Origin: an uncultured Gammaproteobacteria bacterium
GTDB lineage: Bacteria > Pseudomonadota > Gammaproteobacteria > PS1 > Pseudothioglobaceae
NCBI GenBank assembly: GCA_902556205.1
Contig: CACDVH010000008.1
Coordinates: 1-64,000 of the forward strand
Reading direction: 5' to 3'
Length of the DNA: 64,000 nucleotides
Program-made: the position numbers and the translations under genes
Shown here: in pieces, positions 24,761 to 28,262 of the stretch
Position numbering within the stretch: position 1 is the first letter of the stretch
Layout of the letters: each line of letters opens with the position of its first letter
The notes under the pieces: generated by a model
Databases searched by the model: none
Told to the model about the DNA's origin: nothing
What the model saw: only the letters and a program-made list of their open reading frames with translations

Positions 24761-26188
24761 CTAGTATTTATAAGCCTCTGGCTTGAATGGACCCTCTTTT
24801 GGAGTATTAATATATTTAGCTTGCTCGTCAGTCATTACAGTTAAAACACCGCCGAAACCTCCAACCATACCTGCTGCTACCTCTTCATCGAGTTTCTTAG
24901 GAAGAAGTTCGACAGTGACATTGGCTGCCTTTTGATCTTTTGGCAAGTCTGCAAATTTCTTTTCAAAAAGGTGCATCTGAGCGAGCACTTGATTAGCAAA
25001 AGACCCATCCATGATTCTAGATGGATGTCCAGTTGCATTGCCTAAGTTTACTAATCTTCCTTCTGAGAGAAGAATTAAGTAATCATTATTATCATTTGAG
25101 CGATATATGCGATGGACTTGAGGTTTTACCTCGTCCCATTTCCAATTATCACGCATATATAGTGTGTCAATCTCATTATCAAAGTGACCAATATTGCATA
25201 CCACAGAGCCTGCTTTGAGGCATTGAAGCATAGCTGCATCACAAACATTGGTGTTGCCAGTTGTTGTGACAATTAAATCAGTAGTAGCTAGCAGCTCTTT
25301 ATTAATGCAATCCAGAGTACCCGTATTGATACCATTAATATAAGGTGAAACTACTTCAAAGCCATCCATACAGGCTTGAAAAGCACAAATTGGGTCTACT
25401 TCAGAAATCTTCACAATCATGCCTTCTTGGCGAAGTGACATTGCTGAACCTTTACCAACATCTCCGTAACCAATAAGCAGTGCTTTCTTTCCAGACATCA
25501 GCATATCAGTTCCACGTTTAATGGCATCATTTAGAGAGTGACGACACCCATATTTATTATCATTCTTTGCTTTAGTGACAGCATCATTAACATTGATTGC
25601 AGGAACTTTAAGCTCCCCACTTTCAATCATTTCTAACAGACGGTGAACGCCAGTTGTTGTCTCTTCACTTATTCCATGAATCTTATCAAGCATTTCAGGA
25701 TACTTGTCATGAACCATGCCAGTTAAATCACCGCCATCATCAAGAATCATATTGGCATCCCACGGCTTACCATCGTGAAGAATAGTTTGTTCAATACACC
25801 ACAAAAACTCCTCTTCAGTTTCACCTTTCCAGGCAAAAACAGGGATATTTCTAGCGGCCATAGCAGAAGCTGCATGATCCTGAGTTGAAAAAATATTGCA
25901 CGATGACCAGCGTATCTCTGCGCCGAGATCAATCAATGTTTCCATAAGGACAGCCGTTTGAATTGTCATATGAATACAGCCCATAATCTTTGCACCTTTT
26001 AGTGGCTGCTCTTTGCTGTACTTTTCTCTGAGTGCCATTAGGGCTGGCATTTCAGATTCGGCTAGCTCAATTTCCTTGCGCCCAAAGTTAGCAAGGTTTA
26101 TATCAGCCACCTTAAAATCATTGCTTAAGCTGTCTAAGTCAAGATCTGAAACTTTAAAATCTGCACTATTAACTGTTGAATTGCTCAT
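24761..26188 (-). CDS. ahcY: S-adenosylhomocysteinase
   Basis: A 475-residue enzyme hydrolysing S-adenosylhomocysteine to adenosine and homocysteine, relieving product inhibition of methyltransferases. Substrate motifs [14 protein letters not shown]-type ([14 protein letters not shown]) and [13 protein letters not shown] are present; the NAD-binding loop is [14 protein letters not shown]; the C-terminus ends in the conserved PFKPEAYKY with lysine and tyrosine contacting NAD. The roughly 40-residue insert of proteobacterial forms is included. A SAH riboswitch and its own promoter lie directly upstream, with ribosome site AAGGAAA. Confidence 0.99.
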
Positions 26189-26215
26189 TTAATTTCCTTG
26201 TTAGTTGAAAAAAAA

Positions 26216-26276
26216 TGAGCGTCGTTTTGATTACCAAGCCTGATTGAGAATTTTTCTCATTGCAACGCTCCTTGGC
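26216..26276 (-). promoter_or_regulatory. SAH riboswitch in the ahcY leader
   Basis: On the minus strand the RNA has the conserved core AGGAGCGUUGCAA, then CAGGCUUGG, then ACGACGCUCA. P1 is formed by GCCAAG with CUUGG, and GAGCGU pairs with ACGCUC to close the pseudoknot. These are the key parts of the ahcY-type SAH riboswitch, which turns expression on when S-adenosylhomocysteine accumulates. It starts within a few bases of the start predicted from the upstream TATAAT and ends about 27 bases before the ahcY ATG. Confidence 0.95.
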
Positions 26277-26285
26277 AGGATATTG

Positions 26286-26313: not shown

Positions 26314-27447
26314 CTATTTTAGAAGTTCAGCTCTATTTGTCTTTTCCCAGCTTATTGACTCCTCAGTCCGCCCAAAGTGACCATAGCTAGCTGTTTGCTG
26401 ATAAATAGGTCGCTTCAGATCCAACATTGCAATTAGACCTTTTGGACGAAGATCAAAATGTTCTCTGATTAAAGTTACAATTTCATGGTTAGGTATCTCG
26501 CCTGTGCCAAAAGTGTCAACACTGATACTAGTAGGTTCTGCAACACCAATCGCATAAGAAACTTGAATTTCACAACGCTTAGCAATGCCAGCAGCAACAA
26601 TATTTTTTGCAACATATCGAGTTGCATATGCAGCACTTCGATCCACTTTTGAAGGGTCTTTTCCTGAGAATGCCCCGCCACCGTGTCTTGCCATACCTCC
26701 ATATGTGTCTACAATAATTTTTCTACCAGTAAGTCCAGCATCACCTACAGGACCACCAATTTCAAAATTACCAGTTGGATTGATATGATATTGAGTGTCT
26801 TTTGTAAGCCACTTTTCTGGAAGAATGGGTTTAATAATATTTTCTAAAACACTTTCTCGAAGATCTTTCAATGAAATATCACCATCATGCTGAGTTGATA
26901 AAACAACAGCATCAATTCCAACAATTTGATTTCCTTCGTAAATGCAGGAGACTTGAGATTTTGCATCTGGACGTAGCCATGGTATTGAGCCATTTAACAT
27001 CAAATCAGCTTGTTGTCTTACCAGTTGATGAGATAGCATTATTGGAGCTGGCATAAGCTCTTCAGTTGAATTTTCAGCATAGCCAAACATAAGGCCCTGA
27101 TCTCCAGCACCTTGTTCATGATTTTCACTTTCTGTGACTCCCATTGAAATATCTTGTGATTGTCTTCCAAGGAGGTTGGTTATTGAGCAGGTTGCACCGT
27201 TAAAACCATACTCTTCTTTGTCATATCCAATTCCAAGAATAGTTTTCCTGACAATAGCTTCATAATCAATTTGAGCCGCGGTAGTTATTTCTCCTGCTAG
27301 GACAACTTGATTATCTTTAACTAGGGTCTCAACTGCAACCCTCGAATTTGGGTCTTGTTCAAGCGCTGCATCAAGAATGGCATCAGAAATTTGGTCACAA
27401 ACTTTATCGGGGTGTCCTGCAGAGACAGATTCAGAGGTAAAAATCAT
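26314..27447 (-). CDS. metK: S-adenosylmethionine synthetase
   Basis: A 377-residue enzyme making SAM from methionine and ATP. The N-terminal [15 protein letters not shown] carries the ATP-binding GHPDK motif; [12 protein letters not shown] is the second signature and [19 protein letters not shown] the third. It is the first gene of a metK-ahcY pair covering two steps of the activated methyl cycle. A SAM-II-like riboswitch and an attenuator-like hairpin fill the 149-base gap upstream. Ribosome site AAAGGA precedes the ATG. Confidence 0.99.
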
Positions 27448-27460
27448 AAAAATCCTTTTT

Positions 27461-27512
27461 AAATAAAATTAAAGCTAAAGGAAAATTTTTAATAAATGAT
27501 CAGCTTTAGCTT
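27461..27512 (-). terminator. Attenuator-like hairpin in the metK leader
   Basis: Perfect nine-base arms AAGCTAAAG (27512-27504) and CTTTAGCTT (27480-27472) on the minus strand, followed by the T-rich TAATTTTATTT. It lies just after the riboswitch core and before the metK ribosome site. It is a candidate expression platform for transcription attenuation. The long loop and interrupted T run make it weaker than the other terminators here. Confidence 0.5.
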
Positions 27513-27561
27513 GTTTTAGCCTTAAATTCGGCAACGCTAGCAATCGGAACAAATCAGCGTT
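27505..27561 (-). promoter_or_regulatory. SAM-II-type riboswitch in the metK leader
   Basis: The minus-strand RNA begins AACGCUGAUUUGUUCCGAUU, then GCUAGCGUU, a short A/U linker and GGCUAAAACAA. P1 is AACGCU with AGCGUU; the loop holds the conserved GCUGAUUU and CCGAUUGC; the 3' GCUAAAA is the conserved ligand-contact segment; loop UUGUU can pair with 3' AACAA as the pseudoknot. Order and spacing match the SAM-II family (the related SAM-V class shares this core). Expected action: repression of metK when SAM is high. Confidence 0.85.
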
Positions 27562-27566
27562 AATTT

Positions 27567-27572
27567 ATTATA
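27567..27572 (-). promoter_or_regulatory. metK promoter -10 element
   Basis: TATAAT on the minus strand (27572-27567), with a TTTACT -35-like element 16 bases upstream inside the 3' end of ccmB. The predicted transcription start near 27560 is exactly at the first base of riboswitch stem P1, which supports both calls. Confidence 0.7.
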
Positions 27573-27596
27573 TCCTTATGGAGTTTAAAGTAAAGT

Positions 27597-28262
27597 CTAT
27601 TCGAGGCTAATTTTTAAAGATAATGCACTAAGAAACGGAGTAATGATAAGACTAGCGACTAGAAAAAAACCTAAAAAATATAATTGACCATCAATTGCTA
27701 GATTTGATTGGGCATTTGAGATTGCACTGGTTGCAAAAATCAAAATGGGGATATAAAGAGGTAGTATCAATAGCGACAAAAGCATTCCAGAATTTTTAAT
27801 TCCAACTACCAGAGAGGCGCCTATTGACCCAATAAGGCTCAGACATGGGGTTGCTATAATCAAAGTCAGTATCAAAATAATGATGCTCTCAGAGTTTAGA
27901 AAAAGCGCCATACCAAGAAAAGGAGACAGGATAATAATTGGAAGTCCTGAAAGGATCCAATGTGCTGTCGTTTTCGCCAATAGAATGAGTGAAAGTGAGT
28001 GGTGAGAAATAATCATTTGTTCAAGAACGCCATTATCAAAGTCATAATGAAATAATGTGTTTAGGGATAGAAGAACCGATAGCATGGTGATCACCCAAAT
28101 AATGCCTGGAGCCATTCTAGATAAAGTTTCTGCTTCTGGGCTTATTGCTATTGGGAATAAAGAAATAGAAATAACAAAAAACATCAAAGGATTAAGAAAG
28201 CTAGAAGGGTTTCTAATTGCCATTTTTAAGTCTCTGGATATGGTGTTAAGGAAGATACTCAC
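27597..28262 (-). CDS. ccmB: Haem exporter permease CcmB
   Basis: A 221-residue protein with six hydrophobic helices, standard for CcmB: starts ISRDLKMAIRNPSSFLNPLMFFVIS and contains FHYDFDNGVLEQMIISHHSL and the glycine-rich SLIGSIGASLVVGIK. With CcmA and CcmC it forms the ABC complex that releases holo-CcmE in system I cytochrome c maturation. It overlaps ccmA by four bases; ccmC and later genes do not follow, and metK comes next. Confidence 0.95.
   Translation of the reverse strand: MSIFLNTISRDLKMAIRNPSSFLNPLMFFVISISLFPIAISPEAETLSRMAPGIIWVITMLSVLLSLNTLFHYDFDNGVLEQMIISHHSLSLILLAKTTAHWILSGLPIIILSPFLGMALFLNSESIIILILTLIIATPCLSLIGSIGASLVVGIKNSGMLLSLLILPLYIPILIFATSAISNAQSNLAIDGQLYFLGFFLVASLIITPFLSALSLKISLE

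Follow-up and report, generated by a model that had tools for sequence, protein, structure and literature searches.

The window, the 64,000-nucleotide (nt) stretch analysed here, comes from an uncultured gammaproteobacterium of the family Pseudothioglobaceae, and carries on its reverse strand metK and ahcY with a SAH riboswitch between the two genes (Table 1). The gene upstream of metK is ccmB, which ends at 27597 and is followed by a sigma-70-like promoter and then by the leader; metK thus has its own start. The position of the promoter (27594-27567) places the +1 at about 27561-27560, the first base of helix P1, in agreement with an earlier sequence-only reading of this DNA in which the leader begins at its predicted +1 with AACGCUGAUUUG. 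The arrangement TTTAC(A/T)..TATAAT is also seen in same-genus leaders. A SAH riboswitch likewise adjoins the metK loci of relatives (L066, L075, L081, L086, L124, L128 and L134) and lies near metK in other Gammaproteobacteria (L082 and L170).

Table 1. Features of the metK–ahcY locus, in window coordinates
Feature	Position	Strand	Remarks
Promoter TTTACT-16-TATAAT, sigma-70-like	27567..27594	-	10/12 matches
metK leader	about 27561-27448	-	real, structured
Aptamer domain, SAM-II-like	27498..27563	-	model R1 match, 84.4 bits
P1 5′ strand ACGCU	27556..27560	-	
GAUUUG, third strand of the triplex in the SAM-II/SAM-V fold	27550..27555	-	invariant, 54/54
AUUGC, 5′ strand of pseudoknot P2	27540..27544	-	invariant, 54/54
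P1 3′ strand AGCGU	27534..27538	-	
P3 hairpin, GCC-GAAUUUAA-GGC in the window	27519..27532	-	at least 5 bp in relatives
A-rich strand UAAAACAA	27511..27518	-	conserved
GCUAAAG, 3′ strand of pseudoknot P2	27504..27510	-	invariant, 54/54
P2a 3′ strand	27500..27503	-	pairs with 27548, 27547 and 27545
Anti-Shine-Dalgarno UCCUUU	27477..27482	-	overlaps the anti-aptamer strand
Anti-aptamer strand CUUUAGCUU	27472..27480	-	9/9 complementary to AAGCUAAAG (27512-27504)
Shine-Dalgarno AAAGGA of metK	27453..27458	-	
metK, S-adenosylmethionine synthetase	26314..27447	-	ATG at 27447; TIGR01034, 579 bits
SAH riboswitch between metK and ahcY	26210..26279	-	RF01057, 50.5 bits, threshold 37
ahcY, adenosylhomocysteinase	24761..26188	-	TIGR00936, 511 bits

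Anatomy of the metK leader

Twenty genomes of the same genus have the same leader before metK, and from these 20 and the window's own copy we built a model of the element (R1, 21 leaders). In an alignment of 54 leaders, P1 is paired in 99.2% of cells and one of its pairs is changed on both sides. The P3 hairpin varies freely in sequence with its pairs kept (GUCAC/GUGAC, ACUAC/GUAGU, GUUAC/GUAAC, GUUGC/GCAAC and GUCUG/CAGAC), all five of its five pairs change on both sides, and only the register given in Table 1 works. The outer pair of P2a covaries as well (C-G in 33, U-G in 12 and U-A in 4), and shifting its partner strand abolishes pairing; an alternative register for P2a (18-86/17-87) had fewer paired cells than the one adopted (17-86/16-87) and was discarded. 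The segments GAUUUG, GAUUGCU and AGCUAAAG are invariant across the 54 leaders, and because the P2 core does not vary within the family, its pairing is without covariation support. Thermodynamic folding of the leader is no better than that of shuffled sequences (z −0.8); the case therefore rests on conservation, not on energy.

The SAM site in the crystal structure of SAM-V is built by U8-U10, A18-G21, U47 and A48-A50 (PMC6061858), to which UUU, AUUG, U and AAA of the leader correspond by position: UUU at 27553-27551 matches U8-U10, U27508 matches U47, and A27507-27505 match A48-A50. In the aligned leaders no variation occurs at any nucleotide that corresponds to a SAM contact of the SAM-II/SAM-V core. 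By analogy with the same structure (PMC6061858), the A-rich strand UAAAACAA should occupy the minor groove of P1.

The two segments that the sequence-only reading had placed in SAM-II order, GCUAGCGUU at 27541-27533 and GGCUAAAACAA at 27521-27511, are both present at the locus. The second was misassigned, being the 3′ arm of P3 together with the A-rich strand and not the SAM-II 3′ element: the GGC of this first GCUAAA copy varies with P3 and is GAC in most same-genus relatives. The functional copy is the second, GCUAAAG at 27510-27504, which is also the one aligned by cmscan.

Distribution and relation to SAM-II

The family comprises sulfur bacteria of the ocean and symbionts of clams or mussels. 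R1 finds the element in 74 of its 83 genomes, in 47 of the 49 good ones and in 10 of 11 genera, as a single copy save for one match taken as chance. The R1 match in G141 and a second one in G133 lie in coding regions, one inside a radical-SAM-like open reading frame (ORF) and the other antisense to an xseA-like ORF, and were set aside as chance. Nine family genomes give no R1 match: metK is missing from the assembly in five, sits at a contig end in one (G413) and is represented by only a distant copy in another (G004, 59% identity); in the other two, G397 and G425, the metK leader is assembled (L217 and L218) and contains no recognizable element. According to a pattern scan of named genomes, Candidatus Thioglobus, Pseudothioglobus, Ruthia, Vesicomyosocius, Thiodubiliella and the Bathymodiolus symbionts scanned have the element before metK. 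The comparison of related metK leaders that the sequence-only reading had proposed shows P1, the pseudoknot strands and P3 to be conserved.

This distribution, with 47 of 49 good genomes and 10 of 11 genera carrying the element, gives no support to the horizontal acquisition that the same reading had considered. The MetK proteins of the family form one clade with 100/100 support inside the gammaproteobacterial MetKs, and the MetKs whose genes have canonical SAM-II lie among the others, with weak support for the deeper branching. Neither the MetK tree nor the family-wide vertical pattern gives a sign of metK gene transfer. The element looks ancestral to the family.

Among 4,227 Rfam families, a SAM riboswitch gives the best match at the locus and, tellingly, falls exactly where the leader of a SAM synthetase gene begins. 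RF01726 (SAM-II) scores 18 bits there against a gathering score of 44, and RF00521 (SAM_alpha) and RF01826 (SAM_V) give no match at the locus even at E 10. On paper these values tell against the class assignment of the sequence-only reading; its SAM-II part is nevertheless supported by a second model, R2, for which we took 20 loci that SAM_alpha detects in the genomes of other Gammaproteobacteria. Only Rfam-found SAM-II hits entered R2, because circularity was to be avoided. With all filters off, the top R2 match of the window is its metK leader at 24.0 bits (E 1.3e-4), the next match reaching 10.4. In most relatives, too, R2 places the leader at the top, and some outer members score weakly. 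Conversely, R1 recovers canonical SAM-II elements, with 50.6 bits in Kangiella spongicola. GAUUUG and GCUAAA are common to the 20 Rfam-found SAM-IIs, which have CUUGC where the leaders have AUUGC. A separate set of canonical SAM-IIs was gathered by a pattern already containing GAUUUG and GAUUGC, and only R2 is free of this bias. Conservation, covariation and the independent SAM-II model together lend good support to a SAM-II-related riboswitch before metK, and a SAM-II variant with a SAM-V-like hairpin is the best reading of the leader's sequence.

Other SAM-II-like matches in the window's own genome were all sub-threshold and were not retained. The SAM-II-like element of Kangiella spongicola (L136, 3024-3093) has its own hairpin in the same linker place and precedes an NhaC-like transporter gene, perhaps for a methionine transporter. 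SAM-II-like elements also stand before metN-like genes (methionine ABC transporter ATPase) in several Gammaproteobacteria (L064 at G173:C1:563378-563437, L070, L098, L129, L130, L140 and L160); L070, L098 and L160, the metN-like loci scanned, fall below the Rfam threshold.

Outside the family, G243 (38.8 bits) and a Solemya gill symbiont (39.9 bits), from two gammaproteobacterial lineages, have a canonical SAM-II element above the Rfam threshold before metK, and sub-threshold copies precede metK at L082, L115, L131 and L170; control of metK by SAM-II is therefore not private to the family. The class itself is not new to Gammaproteobacteria, where records date from 2005-2007: the description of SAM-II in Alphaproteobacteria lists a few members outside that group, including Coxiella (PMC1273637), and a 2007 paper reported it from Gammaproteobacteria and suggested horizontal transfer (PMC2258182). 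When about 200 proteobacterial genomes were surveyed in 2014, SAM_alpha turned up in Rhizobiales and Rhodobacterales alone, and metK was not named as a target (PMC4239095). The searchable literature, which leaves most subscription journals outside, holds no description of this element, of SAM-II before metK or of riboswitches in these symbionts, and neither the variant nor its position on metK across the family appears to have been described before.

Candidate switching paths and alternative readings

In the window's subclade, the switch probably hides the ribosome site. When SAM is plentiful, bound SAM would hold GCUAAAG in pseudoknot P2, and the freed downstream strand UCCUUUAGCUU would pair with the Shine-Dalgarno AAAGGA, leaving metK untranslated; when SAM is scarce, AAGCUAAAG would pair with CUUUAGCUU and the ribosome site would stay open. 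The helix AAGCUAAAG/CUUUAGCUU has 9 bp and z −3.4 against shuffles, with z about −3 in the window's subclade. The Shine-Dalgarno is largely open in the fold predicted with the P2 strand free, and paired in that predicted without the P2 strand. Many members outside this subclade have an anti-aptamer helix no better than chance, and only 22% of leaders have one that outperforms shuffles at p ≤ 0.05; a general helix in all leaders was accordingly dropped, and we claim it only for the window's subclade and some others. Folds predicted for most leaders outside this subclade pair the Shine-Dalgarno as well, with a less clear link to the aptamer.

Of 55 leaders, 35 have a terminator hairpin between the aptamer and metK, where mononucleotide shuffles predict 0.6. 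These terminators are of the AACCC...GGGUUUUU type. In several of them CUAAAGCUGGU, which serves as the 3′ strand of P2/P2a, has its complement in the 5′ arm and loop of the hairpin, as with ACCUGCUUUAG in L016. Leaders of the window's subclade, the window's own included, lack a terminator. In most other family members the downstream intrinsic terminator, which in several overlaps the same anti-aptamer strand, suggests that the switch would act mainly on transcription. By either route metK would be turned off.

We therefore regard the leader, with a probability of roughly 0.83, as a one-SAM aptamer of the SAM-II/SAM-V pseudoknot superfamily, in which a SAM-II core carries P3 inserted between P1 and the A-rich strand and which works as an OFF switch. 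Its SAM-responsive OFF-switch function is very likely; what we infer is that the RNA binds SAM, in which direction it regulates and by what path it switches.

That the leader is instead a SAM-V riboswitch, with P1, P3 and the pseudoknot acting directly on the ribosome site, is unlikely, although its P3 occupies the same place as the SAM-V hairpin between P1 and the A-rich strand (PMC6061858), its SAM-site bases are the same, and true SAM-V elements exist in the same genus. The SAM_V model is silent at the locus and matches the window's own genome only on other contigs, R1 does not find the same-genus SAM-V loci L183-L186, and the SAM-II model R2 does match the leader. The pseudoknot also differs: below the SAM site, P2 of the leader is GC(U)/(A)GC as in SAM-II, its GCU/AGC giving at most three pairs with A-A at the next position, whereas SAM-V has a four-pair lower P2 (21-24 with 43-46). 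Moreover, the leader's Shine-Dalgarno (27458-27453) lies about 45 nt past GCUAAAG and not at the aptamer 3′ end. The SAM-V class that the sequence-only reading had allowed for was rejected, although the extra hairpin of the leader resembles the P3 of SAM-V.

Riboswitch variants with changed ligands exist, and the low Rfam scores would suit a SAM-II-derived aptamer that now binds, for example, SAH, methionine or a polyamine; one report describes a spermidine riboswitch built on a SAM aptamer (PMC10853860). We consider a changed ligand improbable, since the SAM site is unchanged and invariant at all its positions, those of the sulfonium-recognizing U:A.U triple included, the gene is metK, whose enzyme makes SAM, and for SAH there is a separate riboswitch just downstream. 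Terminators and ribosome-site hairpins alone could also regulate metK, as a plain attenuator or a protein-binding site whose likeness to SAM-II is convergent. This we hold to be the least probable reading: P1, GAUUUG, AUUGC, the A-rich strand and GCUAAA all stand in SAM-II order, which is very unlikely by convergence, canonical SAM-II precedes metK in other Gammaproteobacteria, and the R2 E-value given above is low.

Comparison with known riboswitch classes

The SAM-II variant reading would give abundant ocean sulfur bacteria and deep-sea symbionts a putative SAM feedback loop on the SAM-making gene, one missed by Rfam-based annotation. Together with the downstream SAH riboswitch, SAM would turn metK off and SAH would turn ahcY on, two RNA sensors in one short stretch. 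Judged by its sequence, the element joins a SAM-II core and a SAM-V-like hairpin; it is fixed before metK in one family, and current Rfam thresholds miss it. More tentatively, and at somewhat less than even odds, the family's metK leaders may form a separate, unnamed riboswitch subclass, intermediate between two classes that are counted apart and fixed on metK family-wide, whose output switched from termination to ribosome-site hiding within the family. As a natural experiment, these leaders allow one to ask whether SAM-II and SAM-V belong to a single superfamily whose members differ by a hairpin.

SAM-V has been described from marine Alphaproteobacteria and Bacteroidetes. In four genomes of the window's genus it occurs above the Rfam threshold (L183-L186), before a family of ~170-residue proteins (MSYQNQSDSDHL...), the scanned members of which have no Pfam or NCBIfam match, and the window's own genome has a weaker copy of 28 bits before an uncharacterized 147-residue ORF (G000:C2:53772-53837, L190). 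Sub-threshold SAM_V matches in the same genus precede genes for betaine-homocysteine methyltransferase and O-succinylhomoserine sulfhydrylase (L192 and L193), so the lineage probably combines riboswitches of the SAM-II-like, SAM-V and SAH kinds.

With canonical SAM-II (RF00521) the leader shares P1, the GAUUUG third strand, the (A/C)UUGC and GCUAAA strands, the A-rich linker, terminators, an association with methionine and SAM genes, and a promoter directly before P1, as noted for SAM-II by Corbino et al. (PMC1273637). It differs in having P3 where the canonical linker is short and unstructured, a trait that is usual but perhaps not defining; in the distance from P1 to GCUAAA, 24-29 nt in most leaders against 13 nt in nearly all canonical SAM-IIs; in the P1 sequence ACGCU/AGCGU; in scoring below the Rfam thresholds; and in its metK target in this family. 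The long-loop SAM-II (RF01726), described from Bacteroidetes and marine samples (PMC2864571), is the best Rfam match, reaching 26-28 bits in L092 and L124, still short of its gathering score, and the leader's extra length lies in the P1-P2 linker. SAM-V (RF01826) resembles the leader in the P3 hairpin after P1, the SAM-site bases and marine hosts, and differs in its lower P2 and in a ribosome site at the aptamer end. The SAM/SAH riboswitch (RF01727), restricted to Rhodobacterales (PMC2864571), likewise stands before metK and forms an H-type pseudoknot, but is not reported by cmscan at this locus.
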